In this document: positions 16,726 through 55,760 of the stretch, in pieces
How positions within the stretch are numbered: position 1 is the first letter of the stretch
How the letters are laid out: each line of letters starts with the position of its first letter
Origin: Candidatus Zhuqueibacterota bacterium
GTDB lineage: Bacteria > Zhuqueibacterota > Zhuqueibacteria > Thermofontimicrobiales > Thiofontviventaceae
Direction: 5' to 3'
NCBI GenBank assembly: GCA_016931935.1
Contig: JAFGDW010000130.1
Location: 1 to 58,796 of the forward strand
DNA: 58,796 nucleotides
Made by a program: the position numbers and the translations under genes
The notes under the pieces: model-generated
Database searches by the model: none
The model's input: only the letters and a program-made list of their open reading frames with translations
Told to the model about the DNA's origin: nothing

Positions 16726-19332
16726 TTAAAACTTAAAATTCACACCAATCGTTGGCACAAACGGAAACATCGGCATGCCCTGACGAATCGAGGGCAAGCG
16801 GTGGTTCACCAGATCGTACTCGCCTTCAAAATCATAATTGTACAAATACAAATTGTTGTGATTCGTCAGATTAATAATTTGCAAGAATGCCTGCAGGCTC
16901 CAGTGCCGGAAGGTGTAGGTGCGCATAAAATTGACATCCCAGCGGAAATAGGCTGGCATGCGTCGCGAACTTTTCTCAGCTTTTACCGGCTCCCGTGATG
17001 ATATGATGGAATGTCCCTCATCGGCTTCAAAATAGTTGACCCAGCCAATTGTCGGCGTTTCCGGTAAACCGGAATAAAAGGAAACCCGGGTCGAGACATC
17101 CCATTTCGAGCTTAATTTATAATTCAATACGCCGGTGAATGCATGACGCCGGTCATACCCCGGATAGTAGGTTTGATATTGCTTCTGAAAATTTTTGTTT
17201 TCAACAAAACTCGATGGCCGCGCTAGTTCGATAGTTTTCTCGGTCAGCGCCCAGGTGTAACTGAGCCATCCGTTCAGGTCGCCCTTTTGTTTACGCAGCA
17301 GAAATTCCACGCCATAGGCTTTGCCCCAGCCCTGCAAAAAATCATCGTCTTCACCTTTACCGCCAAGCTCATTGAGATCGAGCAGGTTGTCATAATCCTT
17401 GTAATATCCCTCGAGCGTGAACATGTACTCGTCATCACGGAACAGGTATTCCAGACCGGCAATCGAATGAATCGCCCGGATCGGTTTATAACGATGATCC
17501 ACGGGAAACCATAAATCGATTAATCGTAAATAATTCATTTCGTCCAAATCTTCAGGATTGAACGTGTAGAAATATTGGTGATACACACCTGTCGATAATT
17601 TTATATTGAGGTTGGATTGCATCCGGTAGCGAAAGCCCAGCCGCGGATCAGCACGAAAATACTTGCCGAGATTGTAATAGGTGAACCGGGCGCCAGCCTG
17701 AATGTTAATCAGCGGCGACACCTTCCAGTCGTCTTGAATGTAGCCGGAAGCGAAATCCGCCTTGCGTTTGTAGTCGAGCAGTTCTAAATCGTTGATTCGG
17801 GCGCCAATGGCAAAATTCAATCGTTGATATTCCAATCCCAGTTTGACATCATGTTGTGGCGATAAAAAATAAGTGGTCTCATTTTTTATTGTCAGGTCGT
17901 TAATAATATCTCGCGCCCGTGTCGTTTCCTGATCGTAATCGCCATCAAATTTTGCCCGGAACCGACTTTTGGCGATGATGAAGTCGGAAAACAGCCGGGG
18001 ACTAAACATGTACTGGTATTTCAGCGTAGAGCAGAAATTCCCCAATCGAATATCCGTCATATCTTTGCCGGACACACGTTCCTGCTGCAAGTTATGATCC
18101 CAAATTTTTCGATCTTCTTTATAATTGAAAACATCATCACCATAAAAACCGCTGAGCGTAATTTTGCTGTTCCTGCTGATGGCGTAATTTACTTTGCCGT
18201 GAAAATCATAAAAGTAATAGGGAATTTTGAAATCCGTATTCGATGTGTGCGGCCGGATAAAATTATTATAAATGAAATCGAAATACGTGCGGCGTGCGGA
18301 AATTAACACCGAACCTTTGGGAATCGGGCCTTCCACTAGCAATTTAGAACTGAGCAGGCTGACACTACCGCTGGTTTCGTACTCCTTGCTGTTGCCATCC
18401 TTGTTTGTTACGGAAATTACTGACGACGCGGCATTTCCATACTGCGCCGGAAATCCCCCCAGCGAAACATCAACATTTTTGATGGCATCCGTGTTAAACG
18501 TACTGAACACGCCGCCAAAGTGATATGGATTGTACACGCGTACATCATCGAGCAGAATCATATTTTCCGAAGGATTGCCGCCGCGAATGTACAGCGCGCT
18601 GGAAAAGTCGCTTTGCGCCACTACGCCGGGCAGCAACTGAATCGCTCGGAATACATCGGCTTCGACAAATGCCGGCGCCTTTTCAAATTCCTGCTGTGAC
18701 ATCTGAATTTTGCTGGTTTCGATCTGTCGTTCAAACCGTTCGCGCTCGGCTGTCTTCACAATGGTTTCGCCCTCGATCACACTTTGAGAGAGCTGAAAAT
18801 CCAACGTCATGGTTTTACCACCGCCAATCGTTATTTGCCGGTCTGCAATTCCATAACCCATCATCATTACACGGACGGTGTAGCTGCCATCGGGAATTTG
18901 CGGGATGACAAAGTAGCCGTTGTCATCGGTAGCATCGCCCCAGGGTGTTTCGCGCAGGACAACATTGGCATAGGGTATTGTCTCGCCATTGGCAGCATCG
19001 CGCACCATGCCGTTAATCAGGTTCAGTTTGGATTGATATACAAGCAGAATTTTATCACCCTGTTCAATGTACTTGATATGATGGCCATTGAACATTTCAT
19101 CCAGAAATGCCTTTACAGTCTGTTTGGTTTTCTTTAATGTAACAATTTTTTTCAATGGCAGCTCATTACTATAGGAAAATGTAAAGCCGCCCTTTTGGCT
19201 GATTTCTTTCAGTAGATTTTCAACGGTGGCGTTTTTTTGAGTCACTTCAACAACTTTGTTAAGATGACGGGTTTGCGCAAACGCATGATGGGTGGTCATT
19301 ATAAGCAAGCATGTAAAAAGTATGTATTTCAT
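16726..19332 (-). CDS. TonB-dependent outer-membrane receptor with N-terminal STN signalling domain
   Basis: Start ATG 19332 (AGAGGA upstream). Signal peptide 1-19. Residues about 24-100 are an STN domain (ATVENLLKEISQKGGFTFSY), which in FecA-type transducers contacts FecR. Residues about 105-190 are a carboxypeptidase-regulatory-like domain (GMVRDAANGETIPYANVVL). Next come a plug with the RGGNPSENMILLDDVRVYNP motif and a 22-strand-type barrel ending in F (GVNFKF). It is energised by TonB/ExbBD, not in this window. Substrate unknown. The sigma and anti-sigma genes lie directly upstream, so it is likely a signal-transducing receptor controlling its own expression. Confidence 0.93.
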   Translation of the reverse strand: MKYILFTCLLIMTTHHAFAQTRHLNKVVEVTQKNATVENLLKEISQKGGFTFSYSNELPLKKIVTLKKTKQTVKAFLDEMFNGHHIKYIEQGDKILLVYQSKLNLINGMVRDAANGETIPYANVVLRETPWGDATDDNGYFVIPQIPDGSYTVRVMMMGYGIADRQITIGGGKTMTLDFQLSQSVIEGETIVKTAERERFERQIETSKIQMSQQEFEKAPAFVEADVFRAIQLLPGVVAQSDFSSALYIRGGNPSENMILLDDVRVYNPYHFGGVFSTFNTDAIKNVDVSLGGFPAQYGNAASSVISVTNKDGNSKEYETSGSVSLLSSKLLVEGPIPKGSVLISARRTYFDFIYNNFIRPHTSNTDFKIPYYFYDFHGKVNYAISRNSKITLSGFYGDDVFNYKEDRKIWDHNLQQERVSGKDMTDIRLGNFCSTLKYQYMFSPRLFSDFIIAKSRFRAKFDGDYDQETTRARDIINDLTIKNETTYFLSPQHDVKLGLEYQRLNFAIGARINDLELLDYKRKADFASGYIQDDWKVSPLINIQAGARFTYYNLGKYFRADPRLGFRYRMQSNLNIKLSTGVYHQYFYTFNPEDLDEMNYLRLIDLWFPVDHRYKPIRAIHSIAGLEYLFRDDEYMFTLEGYYKDYDNLLDLNELGGKGEDDDFLQGWGKAYGVEFLLRKQKGDLNGWLSYTWALTEKTIELARPSSFVENKNFQKQYQTYYPGYDRRHAFTGVLNYKLSSKWDVSTRVSFYSGLPETPTIGWVNYFEADEGHSIISSREPVKAEKSSRRMPAYFRWDVNFMRTYTFRHWSLQAFLQIINLTNHNNLYLYNYDFEGEYDLVNHRLPSIRQGMPMFPFVPTIGVNFKF

Positions 19333-19362
19333 TGTGTTCCTCTAATTTCATGTGCATTGGAA

Positions 19363-19393
19363 CGTGCTACGCAATCTCAAATTGTGTTGCACG
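19363..19393. other. Imperfect hairpin upstream of the TonB receptor gene
   Basis: CGTGCTACGCAAT (19363-19375) pairs with ATTGTGTTGCACG (19381-19393), 11 of 13 bp, 5-nt loop, 30 bp upstream of the receptor start. It resembles the GCTACGCACTT hairpin at 13436. Possible leader structure or dispersed palindrome. Confidence 0.4.
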
Positions 19394-19582
19394 TTTGAAT
19401 TAAGGGTCAGGGTACATGGATAGTCAATTAAGGCGTTGTTCTTTATATTGACTGAATTAAACTAATTGGACATTCAGTTGGAGTATCGCTTCATACTTCG
19501 ACTACGCTCAGTATGAAGCTGTGGTAGACTTCACCCCGAGCGAGTCGAGAGGTGAAACGCATACCAATTACACAGATAAGAC

Positions 19583-19736
19583 GTATCCATTCAATAAAAG
19601 AGGGTAGTTTTAATTTGTAAGTAAGGTTTTACACTTCGACTCCGCTCAGTGTGAAGTGGTGGCATAATTTCATGCTGAGCGAAGTCGAAGCATGATAATA
19701 CTGTATCATTAATTCCATGATTTATTGAACGGATAC
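19583..19736. mobile_element. MITE-like element A1, 154 bp, with 8-bp target duplication
   Basis: Left end GTATCCATTCAATAAA (19583-19598) and right end TTTATTGAACGGATAC (19721-19736) are inverted repeats with 15 of 16 matches. The flanks are a perfect 8-bp direct repeat GATAAGAC (19575-19582 and 19737-19744). The interior holds palindromes of the CACTTCGACT/CGCTCAGTGTGAAG type and no coding capacity. Ends and duplication length are shared with 31609-31769 and 54194-54389. It sits in the 446-bp gap between the FecR and TonB-receptor genes. Just left of it (19490-19555) lies another CTTCATACTTCGACTACGC-type palindrome without clear ends. Confidence 0.85.
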
Positions 19737-19778
19737 GATAAGACTATAATTCAATTCTTTGTTGGAACAGATTAATAA

Positions 19779-20774
19779 TTAATTGATAATAATAGTAACC
19801 GGATCTTTAATCGTATATGAACAGTGCAGCACGATGCTTATTTCCTCGATAATCTGACTAATCGACTGATCTTTAAACTGTGATGTGAATCTACGTGCAT
19901 TCAATTTGGGATTATCAATCTTAATATGAACATTGTACACACGTTCCAATGTACTGATAACGTCTGCCAGCGGTGTGTTATTAAATACTAGCACACCGGT
20001 TTTCCAGGCCAGTAAATTGGCATCATAACTTTGGGATTTCACAAATTGGGATGAATCGTTTTTAAATTCGCCGTATTCTCCTTTCACTAATTCGATGCGA
20101 TTGTCATGATGATCGGATTGAAACACCGCCACTTTGCCGGAAACAACCGTCACTTGCACGCAATTACACAGCGAATCGGTGCGTACATTAAATGACGTGC
20201 CCAACACCTGCGTGGTCACCTGTTGCGTGCGAATTCGGAATGGATGCGCTTCATCGTGTGTCACGTCAAAGTAGGCCTCGCCGTTTAACACAAGAGTGCG
20301 ATCTTCCAAAAACTGTTTGGACTGATAGTCTAGTTGAGTGGCCGCATTTAAATGAATCGTACTGCCATCCGGCAAGGTAATAGTCATTTTTTCGTGTGCC
20401 CGGGTGGTAATGCTCATCACACGATTAAGACTGCTTCGATACCAAAGCACGCCGGCACCAATTCCAACACATAATACCAGCATAGCCGCAATTCGCAGCA
20501 TGTACCGCATCGGTGTATATGATTCACGTCTGCGCAACAGTGCAATAGTCGCCTGCCGAGACGTGAAATTCATGCGTGCTTTTACTTTCTGCCAATCCGC
20601 TTCCACATCAATCGCTGCAAATTCGGCGATATGAGTTGACTTGTTCCACAGCTTTTGAATGCGTTGAAATTCAGTCCGATTGGCATCGTTTGTGGCAATC
20701 CATTCATCCACACGCCGAATTTCTTCCTGCTCAGCCTGCCCGGCCAGGTATTTGACGATGAGTTTAATATCCAT
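19779..20774 (-). CDS. FecR-type anti-sigma factor
   Basis: 331 residues. The N-terminal cytoplasmic region (DIKLIVKYLAGQAEQEEIRR, DUF4880-like) binds the sigma factor. One membrane span lies at about 84-107 (MLRIAAMLVLCVGIGAGVLW). The periplasmic FecR domain (ITLPDGSTIHLNAATQLDY, then GEAYFDVTHDEAHPFRI, VLGTSFNVR) and a DUF4974 C-terminal domain follow. It lies 138 bp after the sigma-factor gene and upstream of the receptor. Expected to hold the sigma factor inactive until the receptor STN domain signals substrate binding. Confidence 0.92.
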   Translation of the reverse strand: MDIKLIVKYLAGQAEQEEIRRVDEWIATNDANRTEFQRIQKLWNKSTHIAEFAAIDVEADWQKVKARMNFTSRQATIALLRRRESYTPMRYMLRIAAMLVLCVGIGAGVLWYRSSLNRVMSITTRAHEKMTITLPDGSTIHLNAATQLDYQSKQFLEDRTLVLNGEAYFDVTHDEAHPFRIRTQQVTTQVLGTSFNVRTDSLCNCVQVTVVSGKVAVFQSDHHDNRIELVKGEYGEFKNDSSQFVKSQSYDANLLAWKTGVLVFNNTPLADVISTLERVYNVHIKIDNPKLNARRFTSQFKDQSISQIIEEISIVLHCSYTIKDPVTIIIN

Positions 20775-49653: not shown

Positions 49654-50549
49654 ATGATGGCCGAAAACTCCAAACGGTTCGATGGATTTCTGGTGTTTTT
49701 AATCCTGATTTATGTTCTTTCAAGCCTTGGTTTTATTTACTATCTATATCACGGCTGGGACTATTATTCAACAGGTTTTGCGGAACGACCGCGTCACGAA
49801 GCTTACCGCCTGCTGAAACCCGGAGGCAATTTTGGGCACGGTTTTGGCATCGTTGGCTCAGCTATGATGCTTGTAATGTTGTTATATTCATTGCGGAAAC
49901 GAACCCCCGTGTGTTTGCAAAAATCGGAACGCTGGTGCACTGGCTGGATATTCATATTTACCTTGGTATTTTTGGACCGTCATTGATTGTGCTGCACAGC
50001 ACGTTTAAAGTAAACGGACTGGTAGCTGTCAGTTTTTATTCGATGGTGGCTGTGGCACTTAGCGGGATTCTGGGCCGCTACCTTTATCTGCAAATTCCCC
50101 GCAATATTCAGGGACATGAACTGTCATTAAATAAACTAAACGATCTCGATCAAAAATTGACGCAATTGCTCAAGCAACGATTCGCATTCACCGATCCGAT
50201 GATCCGGCAAGTTGAACATTTAACGGCCAGTTCGCACCTTGAATCGAAAAGCACGCTCGTATTTCTGTTTACATTATCAACAGATGGCCGCAAACGCAGA
50301 CGTGCATTTAATAAATTCAGACGGGAAAATCCTGTCGTTCATAAACTGGCAAAGCACCAGGTTCGGGCCATGTTATCACTTGCCCGGCAAAAAGCAGTGC
50401 TTCACCAACGCATTCAGGTACTCAACCGCGTGAATCAAATCTTCCATTACTGGCATGTCATTCACAAACCGTTTGCATTTATCATGATTATCATCATGTT
50501 TGTTCATATTACCGTCGCTGTGATGTTCGGATATAAATGGGTATTTTAA
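49654..50549 (+). pseudogene. Cytochrome b-like / multihaem-partner membrane protein, frameshifted at a C run
   Basis: Start ATG 49654 with AAGGA. The frame reads through two membrane spans (FLVFLILIYVLSSLGFIYYL, then FGIVGSAMMLVMLLYSLRKR) and closes at 49986. The continuation in the next frame to 50549 (VFAKIGTLVHWLDIHIYLGI, then GPSLIVLHST and HYWHVIHKPFAFIMIIIMFV) has His-rich spans typical of di-haem cytochrome b domains. Adding one C to the five-C run at 49904-49908 joins them as RKRTPRVFAKIG. Head of the electron-transfer locus; likely passes electrons from quinol or flavoprotein to the following multihaem cytochrome. Confidence 0.75.
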
Positions 50550-50550
50550 A

Positions 50551-52380
50551 ATGAAGACGAAAATCGTTGTTCTGTTGTTCGTTGTTCTTCCATGTAATGC
50601 TTTTGCTCAACTTTCTCCGGGGAAATTACACCAGTCCCATGCTGCTCTTGAAGGACTGCAAAATTGCTCCAAATGTCACCAATTCGAAAAACAAATCAGC
50701 GCTCAGAATTGCCTGGCCTGTCATACCGTGCTTCAGCAACGAATTGAAGCCCACAAAGGCTTGCATGCCAATAATGATTAACAGGAATGCCAAAAGTGCC
50801 ATATCGAACACCAGGGCCGGGATTATGAGTTGATTTACTGACCCGATGGTAAGGACAATTTCCAACACGACCTGACCGGATATAAGCTGGAGGGCAAGCA
50901 CCCGCAACTCAAATGTGCGTATTGCCATCAGGAAAAGAATATTGTCGATAAAGCAATGTTGATCGAAAAGAAGAAGAATTTGAACCGAACCATGCTGGGC
51001 TTATCACAGGAATGTCTCTCCTGCCACACCGGTGAACATCGGGCGCAATTGGGCGCCGATTGTTTAAAATGTCACGCCATGAACGGCTGGAAGCCGGCTA
51101 ACAAATTTGATCACGCCCGGGCGAACTATCGGCTGACCGGAAAGCATCGTCAGGTTGAATGCTTGAAATGTCATCCACAGGTGACTGACCATAAGTTTGC
51201 CGACGATCCGTCATTTTCCAACTATAAAAGCATTAAATTTGCTGCCTGCACCGATTGTCATCGTGATGAACACAACAATCAGTTTGGGCAGAAGTGTGAA
51301 TCGTGTCATTCTACCACGGGCTGAAAAACTGTGAATCGCCAGCAGTTCAATCATAATCGTACGGCTTATCCGTTGCGAGGTAAGCATGTTACTGTGGAAT
51401 GCGAACGTTGTCATCTGCCCGGCAAGCCGCTTAAAATTCAGCGCTACGGGAAATGTGTTGATTGCCACGCGGATTATCATCGCGGTCAATTTAACAAGCG
51501 CGAATTTATCGGGCAATGCGAAAAATGTCATTCGGTCGAGGGATTCACGCCGGCAACGTTCACGATTGAACAGCACAATCAACTTGATTTCCGGTTGGAG
51601 GGCGGCCATCTGGCCGTGCCGTGTATTGCCTGTCACAAAAAAATTAATCATGGACTGCCCAACGAAACCATGCAATTCCATTACCCGTCCACAACATGCC
51701 TGGATTGTCACGCCGATCCCCATGGCGGCCAGGTAGACAAATATGTTCGGCAAAACGGCTGCGAAGCCTGCCATTCAGTGGCCAGTTGGCACCGGATTAC
51801 GTTTGATCACAACCGCACTAAATTTCCGCTTGAAGGCAGACACGTGGAAACCGCCTGTGCTCGCTGCCACATCAACGATGACCAACCGGCAGTCAAAAAA
51901 TCGTATGCATTTGTAAATGTTTCCACCGAATGCCAGTCGTGTCACGACGACATTCATCTCGGTCAGTTCCGGGAGAAAAAGAAGCGCGACGGCAAAAGCC
52001 TCACCGAATGCGGGCGCTGCCACACACCGACTGATTGACTGGCAGAAAAGTTCAATCACAATACGTTCTCAACGTTTAAACTCGATGGCGCCCATCAATA
52101 CGTAAAATGTGAACATTGCCACAAACAAATTACATTGAAAGGAATCACGTTCCGGCTGTACAAACCACTCCGCTCGGATTGCAGTTTTTGTCATGATACC
52201 CGGAAGAAGGAGTTAGGAAGTTGTAGATTAAAAAACATGGAACACGAATCGCAACATAGGCTGATGCGTACTTTATTTGGCCATTGGACGGTGTGGGCTT
52301 TTCAATCTAAATACACCGAAGGTGTAAAACAACAAAGCCCAGGGTCGAGCGAAGCGACACCCTGGGGAAAAAAGATATAA
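50551..52380 (+). pseudogene. 20-CxxCH multihaem cytochrome c with one TAA and three TGA in frame
   Basis: ATG 50551, one base after the previous stop; signal peptide to about residue 20. The frame from 50551 stays open except for TAA 50779-50781, TGA 50839-50841, TGA 51322-51324 and TGA 52036-52038, with no frameshift. By my count it contains 20 CxxCH haem sites. Repeats read C-x-x-C-H-x4-W-x-n-F-x-H-x-n-L-x-G-x-H-x-x-V-x-C-x-x-C-H; the TGAs at 51322 and 52036 fall exactly on the repeat Trp, and 50839 reads LIY-stop-PDG, where Trp is plausible. Real coding similarity ends by about 52230; beyond that the frame runs into non-coding repeat to TAA 52378. Either decaying, mis-sequenced, or read through. 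Confidence 0.8.
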
Positions 52381-52600
52381 AAAATGAACTCTGAAAGAGT
52401 TCAACAGCGTGCGAATGGAATTGACCCATAAAAAAATTATAGATGAGCCCATTCTAAAAACCGCGAATTACACAAATGGACGCGAATAGAAATTTATTAA
52501 GTCTTATAAAAACAATGCGCCGAAGGACGCATCTGTCCCGCCGAAAAAAGCGGGACATGATTGGTGAAAATTAGTGAAATTCGTGGTTAAGCTCTTTTTA
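52240..52600. other. Non-coding/repeat stretch between cytochrome and barrel genes
   Basis: Bases after about 52240 lose coding character. They include a CCCAGGGTCGAGCGAAGCGA-type palindromic unit (52339-52365) and AATTCGTGGTTAAG/CCGCGAATTACAC-style intergenic motifs. The stretch lies where the 5' end and signal peptide of the barrel gene would be expected, so it may have replaced them. Confidence 0.55.
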
Positions 52601-52625
52601 AGCCGACAAAGAGCGTCGGCTTAAA
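52597..52625. other. Perfect 11-bp hairpin at the broken start of the barrel gene
   Basis: TTTAAGCCGAC (52597-52607) and GTCGGCTTAAA (52615-52625), 7-nt loop. The right arm lies inside the open barrel reading frame (which is open from 52602). Confidence 0.6.
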
Positions 52626-52664
52626 TACATCTCTGCTGAAAATGTCTATATTGACGGCGGTCAA

Positions 52665-54128
52665 ATGGATGGATTGAGTGTTGGCGATACATTGGTTGTT
52701 TATCAAAAAAAAACGAAAGTTGCTGTGCTGAAAATTAACTACACAGCAGATCACTCGGCGGCGTGCTCGGTGCTGGTAAAACGTGGGGAGGTTCAACCGG
52801 GTGATCTTGTTCAGGCTATTTCACTGAAGCCGCAACAGAATGCGCCGGTCGAACACAAATCGCGCGTGCGGAAAACTGCTGCGGGTAAATCGTCGTCTTC
52901 AAAGCTGGATCGCGCCCGATTGAGCGGTAATGTTAGCTTCCAATGGTATCATGTCGAAGATCAGTCCAGCGGCGGTTATAATTTCGATCAACCGGGTGTT
53001 CGGTTGAATCTGAAAGCCAAAAACCTGTTTAGTGAGCATTTGAATTTCCGTTTAAAGACACGCAGCCGTTACAATCAGCGTGCCCATAGTTTCAGCAGCA
53101 CGGTGCCACAGGATGAATGGCGCAACCGGATTTACTCCGCCAGTCTCAGCTATGACAATGAGGATGCGCCGGTCAATTTTCAGTTCAGCCGGATTATTTC
53201 CAATGTTTTCAGCGGCATCGGTTATATTGATGGATTGCTGCTGCAACAGAACCTGAATCAGCAATTCCGTTACGGCGTATTTGGCGGCACGCAACCGCAA
53301 TGGCGGTATGCCGATTTTCAAACCTCGATCCAAAAATATGGCGCGTACGCCAATTACGTTCGGGGCGAATATGGCAGCAAGCGCTATGAAGCCACGCTGG
53401 CGCTGGCCGGAGAATATCATAGCTCGGTGGTAAGCCGTGAATTTGTGTACATCCAGAATAACTATTCGGATGCAAAATTTAACATCTACCAAAGCGCTGA
53501 ACTGGACGTCAATCGCGACTGGCGAAAGACGCGCACCGGGCAAAGCATGTCGCTTTCCAATTTGTACATCAATGCGTCGTGAACTGCCACCTCCTGGCTG
53601 ACCACCGGCTTGAGCTTCGATAACCGGAAAAATTACTACACCTATGAAATTCGTTCGGTTGCCGATAGTCTGTTCGATGATGCAATGCGCTACGGTGTGC
53701 GCTGGAATATTAACGCGCGATTGCCCAATAATTATCGCGTGTTCGCCAATGCCGGCTTGCGAGCGCGCCAGACCGACACGCAAAATACATACTCGTTTGC
53801 CGGAGGCGTCAGTAAATTCAACATCACGTCAATGCGCTTGTACGTGAACGTGTACGCATCGGGATTTCTCAACTACTTTGCCGATGGTTACCACGGTTCG
53901 CTGCAATTCGGCAAACGCTTTCAAGCCGGTCATGACGTGAATTTCAGTTATGGAAATTACTCATATATATTGAGCACCGTGAATACAACACGTATGAACC
54001 AATGGCTGCGCGCCAACAGTACATTGCAACTGTTCCGGCATTTTTATGTGAGTGAAAATTACGAATATGTCTGGGGCGACGATTCCCCCGGGCAACGGGT
54101 GTACGCGGAGCTGGAGTATCGGTTTTAA
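52665..54128 (+). pseudogene. Outer-membrane beta-barrel protein of the multihaem locus; N-terminally truncated, one in-frame TGA
   Basis: The frame is open from 52602 (KYISAENVYIDGGQ precedes the first ATG at 52665), with no signal peptide or ribosome site, so the true 5' end is missing. A small beta domain (MDGLSVGDTLVVYQKKTK) is followed by a long Tyr/Asn-rich barrel (NVSFQWYHVE, RNRIYSASLSYDNED, FGGTQPQWRYADFQ) ending in F (YAELEYRF), the usual outer-membrane end. TGA 53580-53582 interrupts YINAS-stop-TATSWL without loss of frame. It probably formed the outer-membrane sleeve for the multihaem cytochrome, like porin-cytochrome conduits; that role is inferred from position. Confidence 0.7.
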
Positions 54129-54449: not shown

Positions 54450-55760
54450 ATGGAATCACAAATTATTTGGTTTAGCACGATTGTACTAATCGCTCTGATC
54501 TTCATTCCGTATGTTATAAAATTCAGGAAGCGGCAGAAACATGATTATGAACGGCATCAGGAAGCTGTTGCATTAGACGCGGACAAACCGATTGCCCAGT
54601 ACCCACAAATCGATATTATGAAATGCATCGGCTGCGGCACATGCGTTATGGCCTGCCCCGAAGGCGATGTGCTAGGCATCGTGCATGGGAAGTCAGCAGT
54701 TATCAACGGCCTGAAATGTGTGGGACATGCCCGCTGTGCCGAGGTGTGTCCGGTGAATGCCATCACCGTCGGTCTGGGAGATATTTCAGCACGTGATGAT
54801 ATTCCACTAATGAACGATGCGAACGAAACCAATTTGCCCGGCCTTTACATTGCCGGTGAGCTGGGTGGGCTGGCGTTAATCAAGAATGCTATTTCTCGCG
54901 GAAAGCGTGTGGTCGATCACATTGCTGCAGATATACTGCCGGGCCAGAATGAGATGTACGATATAATTGTTATCGGCGCCGGACCAGCGGGTATCAGCGC
55001 AGCGCTGACTGCCAAACAGCATGACCTGTCGTGCCTGATTCTGGATCAGCAGGGATTCGGCGGTACGATTTTGCAATACCCGCGCAAAAAAGTGGTCATG
55101 ACTCACCCGGTGGAAATTCCGCTTTATGGTTGGTTGAACAAACAAGAATATACAAAGGAAGAGCTGCTTGCTATTTGGAATGAAATTCATCGAAAATTCA
55201 AGCTGAATATCAAAATTGGTGAAAAACTGGAACATGTGCGCCGCAAAGGCAACGGATTTCATGTCCAGACAAATAAAAATTCGTATTCGGCGCAGCGCGT
55301 TGTGTTGGCATTGGGCCGCCGGGGCACCCCACGCAAACTAAATGTACCCGGTGAAGAATCCGCAAAAGTAATGTACAAACTGATCGACGCTGAAAGTTAT
55401 CAGAATAACCATATTCTGATCGTCGGTGGCGGCGATAGCGCTGTTGAGGCAGCGATCGGCCTGTCGATGCAACCGGGCAACTCGATTACAATATCCTATC
55501 GTAAAGCGAAATTTTTCAGATTGAAGAAGAAGAATCAACAAAATATCAGTGAACTGATTGCGACCGGCAAAGTAAGGGTGATATATAATTCCAACGTTAT
55601 TAAAATCAGCCACGAATCGGTTGAACTTTCCACGCACGACGGCGTTCAACGATTGCAAAATGATTATGTGTTAATTTTTGCAGGCGGCGAACCTCCGTTC
55701 AAACGGTTAAAAGATATCGGCATTGAATTCGGTGGAGAAGAAAAAAGTGTGGCAGCATAA
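54450..55760 (+). CDS. Membrane-anchored [4Fe-4S] ferredoxin / FAD-NAD(P)-dependent oxidoreductase
   Basis: I choose ATG 54450 (MESQIIWFSTIVLIALIFIP, one membrane span); a longer frame back to 54330 only reads through the MITE-like element. 436 residues. Two Fe-S motifs at about 57-105 (CIGCGTCVMACPEGD; then CVGHARCAEVCPVNAI, where the second Cys is His). Thioredoxin-reductase-like fold: FAD motif DIIVIGAGPAGISAAL (about 170) and NAD(P) motif HILIVGGGDSAVEAAIGL (about 318). Likely moves electrons between NAD(P)H and the membrane or ferredoxin; placed after the cytochrome genes it may feed or drain them. Intact, unlike the three genes before it. Confidence 0.87.
   Translation: MESQIIWFSTIVLIALIFIPYVIKFRKRQKHDYERHQEAVALDADKPIAQYPQIDIMKCIGCGTCVMACPEGDVLGIVHGKSAVINGLKCVGHARCAEVCPVNAITVGLGDISARDDIPLMNDANETNLPGLYIAGELGGLALIKNAISRGKRVVDHIAADILPGQNEMYDIIVIGAGPAGISAALTAKQHDLSCLILDQQGFGGTILQYPRKKVVMTHPVEIPLYGWLNKQEYTKEELLAIWNEIHRKFKLNIKIGEKLEHVRRKGNGFHVQTNKNSYSAQRVVLALGRRGTPRKLNVPGEESAKVMYKLIDAESYQNNHILIVGGGDSAVEAAIGLSMQPGNSITISYRKAKFFRLKKKNQQNISELIATGKVRVIYNSNVIKISHESVELSTHDGVQRLQNDYVLIFAGGEPPFKRLKDIGIEFGGEEKSVAA

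Follow-up and report, generated by a model that had tools for sequence, protein, structure and literature searches.

In-frame stop codons in a 20-haem cytochrome gene of a Candidatus Zhuqueibacterota bacterium probably reflect recent inactivation of an electron-transfer gene cluster

Results

The multihaem cytochrome gene described here most probably belongs to a recently inactivated electron-transfer gene cluster (we put the probability at about 0.8), and is not a gene in which TGA is read as tryptophan. It lies in contig JAFGDW010000130.1 of GCA_016931935.1, a metagenome-derived assembly of a Candidatus Zhuqueibacterota bacterium, and we refer to the whole 58,796-nucleotide stretch that was analysed as the window. 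The observations behind this reading are the lesions themselves, the conserved columns at which they fall, a missing gene, and the ordinary use of TGA elsewhere in the genome. Early decay was one of the options offered in the original prediction and is the best supported of them, because the whole cluster is damaged, including by a TGA at a tyrosine column; read-through of UGA, also among those options, is unlikely.

The cytochrome frame and its stop codons

The cytochrome frame and its lesions are as follows.

50551..52209, plus strand: 20-haem c-type cytochrome frame with 20 CxxCH motifs and stops at 50779, 50839, 51322 and 52036
50779..50781, plus strand: in-frame TAA, residue 77, at a variable, mostly Tyr column
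50839..50841, plus strand: in-frame TGA, residue 97, at a column that is Trp in 119 of the 120 homologues listed
51322..51324, plus strand: in-frame TGA, residue 258, at a column that is Trp in 120 of the 120 homologues listed
52036..52038, plus strand: in-frame TGA, residue 496, at a column that is Trp in 120 of the 120 homologues listed

The frame is thus intact, as originally proposed, apart from one TAA and three TGA codons, and it matches the Pfam families Cytochrome_C7, Cytochrom_c3_2 and Cytochrom_CIII and an MtrC-MtrF-like domain. Homologues were sought with its translation, entering TGA as W and TAA as X, which gave at least 4556 matches among 8000 scored candidates, the best with 64% protein identity and most of the best 100 listed with 41-64%. 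Alignment at the TGA sites, which the original prediction called for, bears out its view that each replaces a tryptophan, including the less certain case at 50839. Only five columns in the alignment of the 120 homologues listed are Trp in more than half of the sequences; three of these are TGA here, and the other two, each Trp in 117 of 120, are TGG. The fifth codon after CxxCH had been noted as Trp twice, Phe once and TGA twice, and this holds, with TGG at residues 180 and 413 and TGA at residues 258 and 496. At the TAA column, 76 of the 120 homologues listed have Tyr, 28 Phe, 12 His, two Leu, and one each Asn and Trp. Altogether the 556 codons include two TGG, three TGA, 17 CAA, 18 CAG, three CGA and no TAG.

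The natural C-terminus has been lost. Homologues end at about residue 556-560, and the frame here continues through repeat-like DNA as far as a TAA at 52378; the translation of this extension matches a repeat found at another place in the genome. No DNA match was found in a plasmid collection, and query P0002 matched no solved structure.

The cytochrome is found in one of the 12 genomes of the host order, that of the window (92% complete, 7.89 Mb, 4.56% estimated contamination), and in none of the 11 others; only three of the 12 reach 90% completeness with no more than 5% contamination. Matches, some of them weak, occur in 21 of 63 genomes of the class (query P0001) and in 24 of 82 genomes of the phylum (query P0002).

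Damaged neighbours and a missing partner

In seven relatives whose loci were compared, a membrane-like protein gene precedes the cytochrome, which is followed by at least one further multihaem cytochrome, a barrel-like protein and then an Fe-S/FAD oxidoreductase; the L027 locus is cut by a contig end, and in L031 and L112 the oxidoreductase lies ahead of the cytochrome instead. In 49 of 80 related loci a barrel-like gene lies downstream in the same orientation, and 48 of these have at least ten CxxCH motifs in one frame between the cytochrome and the barrel-like gene. The exception is L148, where the barrel-like match begins 4 bases past the cytochrome match and there is no second multihaem frame. 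The corresponding features of the window are listed below.

49654..50549 (49654-~49905 and ~49908-50549), plus strand: conserved membrane-like protein gene, recognised from relatives' proteins, split in two frames
52210..52619 (410 bases), no strand: filler in place of the second multihaem cytochrome, with two dispersed repeats inside
52620..54128, plus strand: conserved downstream gene, recognised from relatives' proteins, 5' end missing, TGA at 53580
54450..55760, plus strand: Fe-S/FAD pyridine-nucleotide oxidoreductase gene (Pyr_redox_3, Fer4), apparently intact, last of the cluster

Six relatives' proteins (that of L027 included) align across both frames of the upstream gene. Its putative membrane-like character is read from the sequence, and neither piece matches a Pfam family. 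No stops were found in 70 distinct homologues, a count made with a single-alignment coverage filter that would drop split copies. Frameshifts had been taken to be absent; this is correct inside the cytochrome, but not for this gene, which is split between two frames.

The filler contains no CxxCH motif in any of its six frames. Much of it is made up of members of two intergenic repeat families of about 100 and 160 bases, at ~52303-52406 and ~52438-52600, and the search for these (40 of 115 candidates scored) gave at least 48 match rows in the genome, the window's own included and some being fragments of one place. Many of the dispersed copies lie at contig ends, suggesting that the repeats break the assembly. 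Nowhere else in the 92% complete genome is there another real match to the cytochrome, the only one being a short match to the repeat-like tail, and the identical query does recover second cytochromes in other genomes.

Alignment of the downstream gene with its relatives begins only at 52608-52620, and 33 to 108 N-terminal residues of the relatives' frames have no counterpart here, so that the start of the gene and any signal peptide are missing. The product is likely an outer-membrane barrel, and neither the gene nor its homologue P0122 matches a Pfam or NCBIfam family. The TGA at 53580 had been counted as further support for the tryptophan pattern, and this did not hold up: the column is Tyr in 28 of the 30 closest relatives and Trp in 17 of 119. 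Two invariant columns of this gene are also broken, by a Gly-to-Ser and a Gly-to-Glu change that both fit G-to-A mutation. The oxidoreductase aligns with relatives over nearly its whole length, and its intact state among decaying partners suggests that it may be useful in its own right. With one neighbour lacking its 5' end and the second cytochrome absent, the window does not hold an intact cluster of the porin-cytochrome type. A working complex is unlikely, given that the upstream gene is split, a partner is missing, a 5' end has been lost and two genes contain stops.

The stops are peculiar to the window. None lies inside the best cytochrome match at any of the 80 related loci, and in loci L003-L026, which share some contigs with that set, they occur only at residue 550 or beyond; we therefore take the stops of full-length copies to be gene ends. 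Stops were also recorded in matches of G024, G033, G054, G030, G039, G042, G031, G066 and G075, and those in the full-length copies fall under this reading, which extends neither to the weak G066 and G075 matches nor to the second-cytochrome ones at G039:C392 and G042:C71:6319-6615. None of the full-length relatives examined has inner stops.

Decoding of TGA in the host

TGA looks like an ordinary stop in this host, and its decoding looks normal. A search with RF00005 gave at least 41 tRNA matches from 150 of 323 candidates scored, and all 41 were typed by ARAGORN. The only tRNA-Trp among them has anticodon CCA, five anticodon-stem pairs, G24 and A9 (in our own numbering from the sequence). 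The suppressor tRNA-Trp(UCA) suggested for follow-up was not found among the 41 matches listed; the genome is 92% complete and a tRNA could have been missed, and since tRNA-Ile(GAU) and tRNA-Ala(UGC) are absent from the typed lists, some tRNA genes must be out of view. UGA-reading tRNA-Trp variants are described as having a four-pair anticodon stem, G24A or A9C in the part of a study of UGA-to-Trp code changes that we consulted (PMC13092985), and the host tRNA-Trp(CCA) has none of the changes named there. Release factor 2 is intact, with a stop-free prfB match of 523 bits. TGA is also a common terminator, ending 178 of 744 long frames (TAA 400, TAG 166) in 1.48 of the 7.89 Mb, or 19% of the genome. 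Genome-wide reading of UGA as Trp was accordingly not supported, as none of the signs of recoding (a UGA-reading tRNA-Trp, a lost or altered RF2, rarity of TGA as a stop) was found among the 41 tRNAs typed, in the prfB match or in the 19% of the genome scanned.

A composition-based scan for frames split by a stop gave TAA 30, TGA 21 and TAG 19 at the loosest cut-off, TAA 13, TGA 3 and TAG 6 at a stricter one, and TAA 4, TGA 1 and TAG 3 at the strictest; the scan found 53580 but missed the TGA sites of the cytochrome itself, and is a weak test for genes of odd composition. When the 21 TGA splits were judged by eye, most looked like antisense frames or neighbouring genes, and one was selenoprotein-like. 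This is a ResA/TlpA-like thioredoxin frame at L237 (G000:C127), 19282-19995 on the plus strand, with an AhpC-TSA match (E 1e-24) and a weak match to a C-terminal sorting tail. Its TGA, at 19522, replaces the first Cys of a W-C-x-x-C motif, and together with a tRNA-Sec at G000:C301:31299-31393 (64 bits, above the cut-off) this makes it a candidate selenoprotein. Selenocysteine was rejected for the cytochrome itself: the tRNA-Sec is present, but all three TGA columns are tryptophan.

Nonsense without missense

Premature stops or a change of frame, one hallmark of a pseudogene, are found in three genes of the cluster: the cytochrome has four stops, the gene after it has one, and the upstream gene has the frame change. 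Change at conserved residues, another such hallmark, is not apparent: the broken invariant columns number 0 of 131 in the cytochrome, 2 of 70 in the downstream gene and 0 of 19 in the upstream gene, and homologues of the downstream gene themselves break 0 to 4 of the same 70. The cytochrome figure, for which TGA was read as W, refers to columns invariant in 30 homologues, each of which breaks 0 to 2 invariant columns in a leave-one-out control, and all 20 haem motifs are kept. Residues unseen in the 120 homologues listed number six in the cytochrome frame, compared with 2 to 11 in the 20 closest homologues.

The strong bias from TGG to TGA that had been claimed for the cytochrome was confirmed. 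Under four mutational spectra, the probability that at least three of four stops arise by TGG to TGA ranges from 0.00004 (uniform mutation) to 0.004 (G:C to A:T transitions only, from which the TAA could not have arisen); this and all the other stop and missense tests are post hoc, the pattern having already been seen. The probability of no missense at the 131 invariant columns before the fourth stop is 0.0012 to 0.0059. A looser set of 125 columns, those conserved in 114 or more of the 120 homologues, shows one missense change, at residue 161, and gives a probability of 0.006 to 0.026; pooling the three damaged genes (five stops, two conserved missense changes) makes the shortage of missense milder, at 0.014 to 0.064. 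Nonsense without missense, mostly at tryptophan codons, is therefore a real property of the cytochrome, and the absence of missense and the excess of TGG to TGA go beyond simple neutral models, leaving a remainder that is not fully explained by neutral decay. Such near-perfect conservation means that the gene was lost only recently, that selection has continued, or that nonsense has been accepted or preferred where missense was not.

Alternatives to simple decay were also considered. Ordinary tRNA-Trp(CCA) might read UGA as Trp, with UAA read as Tyr, giving a little full-length cytochrome, so that matched stops are tolerated and missense is removed. The three TGA codons at Trp columns, the TAA at a mostly Tyr column, the 131 unbroken invariant columns and the excess of nonsense all suit this explanation, and bacterial in-frame stops under purifying selection have been described in what we consulted of PMC7918605. 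However, a ribosome would have to pass four stops in series to make a product whose partner gene is missing, whose downstream neighbour has no 5' end and whose upstream neighbour is split; the TGA at 53580 lies outside the Trp columns, no suppressor was seen, the tRNA-Trp(CCA) lacks the changes noted above, and split frames show no excess of TGA (21 of 70, and 3 of 22 at the stricter cut-off). We regard it as improbable on balance. A related version is very unlikely: that the code is ordinary and the cytochrome is made at a low level by near-cognate tRNAs reading the three UGA as Trp and the UAA as Tyr, with selection removing missense but sparing matched stops, so that stops are tolerated gene by gene and the code is unchanged.

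Selection could instead have favoured silencing. Once its partners were lost, an exported haem-rich fragment might be costly, and stops, the earlier the better, would then be favoured over missense. This would account for nonsense exceeding conserved missense and for the two very early stops at residues 77 and 97, but one early stop would have sufficed, those at residues 258 and 496 would be useful only if they came first, and a bias towards Trp codons is not predicted; we consider it the most doubtful of these explanations. Error in sequencing or assembly, or a mixture of strains, also seems very improbable in this metagenome-derived genome of 381 contigs. The estimated contamination and the lack of excess missense at conserved sites are compatible with it, but random errors would produce missense far more often than stops (a computed 0.05 or so of random changes are stops), a missing gene replaced by repeat-bearing filler is not a matter of base errors, and all 26 long frames listed in the window are open. 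Comparison by eye of the sequences flanking the five stops (those of the cytochrome and 53580) found no common methylation or deamination motif.

Discussion

We infer the following order of events, loss of function and mutational cause for recent inactivation of the cluster. Repeat-bearing intergenic DNA would have taken the place of the second cytochrome gene, removing with it the 3' end of the first and the 5' end of the next. The complex, which is predicted to transfer electrons across the cell envelope, could then no longer have assembled. Its surviving genes would afterwards have gathered stops and a frame change, mostly through G-to-A or C-to-T mutations, before much missense accumulated. 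TGA would act as an ordinary stop throughout, and most ribosomes would have halted already at the TAA, after residue 76.

Read as decay, the window captures a predicted electron-transfer cluster shortly after inactivation, with every haem site still present, in an order whose other 11 genomes are without the cytochrome. It also illustrates that TGA at the Trp sites of a single gene can be mistaken for recoding if the neighbouring genes are not examined. Should the excess of matched stops over missense turn out to be general, it would bear on how often stop-bearing bacterial genes are still expressed.

A literature search found no report that joins a multiheme cytochrome with a pseudogene and an in-frame stop codon, and the part of PMC12977616 that we consulted mentions gene loss once and does not mention pseudogene, truncation, frameshift or stop codon. 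Four kinds of known system invite comparison with the window. Changes of UGA to Trp, in the consulted part of PMC13092985, resemble the cytochrome in having TGA at Trp positions, but here only one gene is involved, the tRNA-Trp(CCA) has a five-pair stem, RF2 is intact and TGA is a common stop. The genes described in the consulted part of PMC7918605 likewise have in-frame stops in an otherwise conserved frame, but theirs are common to several species, whereas the stops of this cytochrome are found in no relative and its neighbours are broken. Porin-cytochrome clusters for extracellular electron transfer are described in Ignavibacteria and others (PMC7399161, in the part consulted), and in them multihaem cytochromes adjoin an outer-membrane protein, as in the window, where the barrel is putative and comes from a gene without a Pfam or NCBIfam match. 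The order of genes around the 20-haem cytochrome is shared with intact clusters of homologues in Calditrichota, Ignavibacteria, Bacteroidota and others (for example L081, CP070707.1, and L080, L100, L028 and L112), but those are open and have a second cytochrome at 48 of 49 loci, whereas the cluster in the window has three damaged genes and lacks one.
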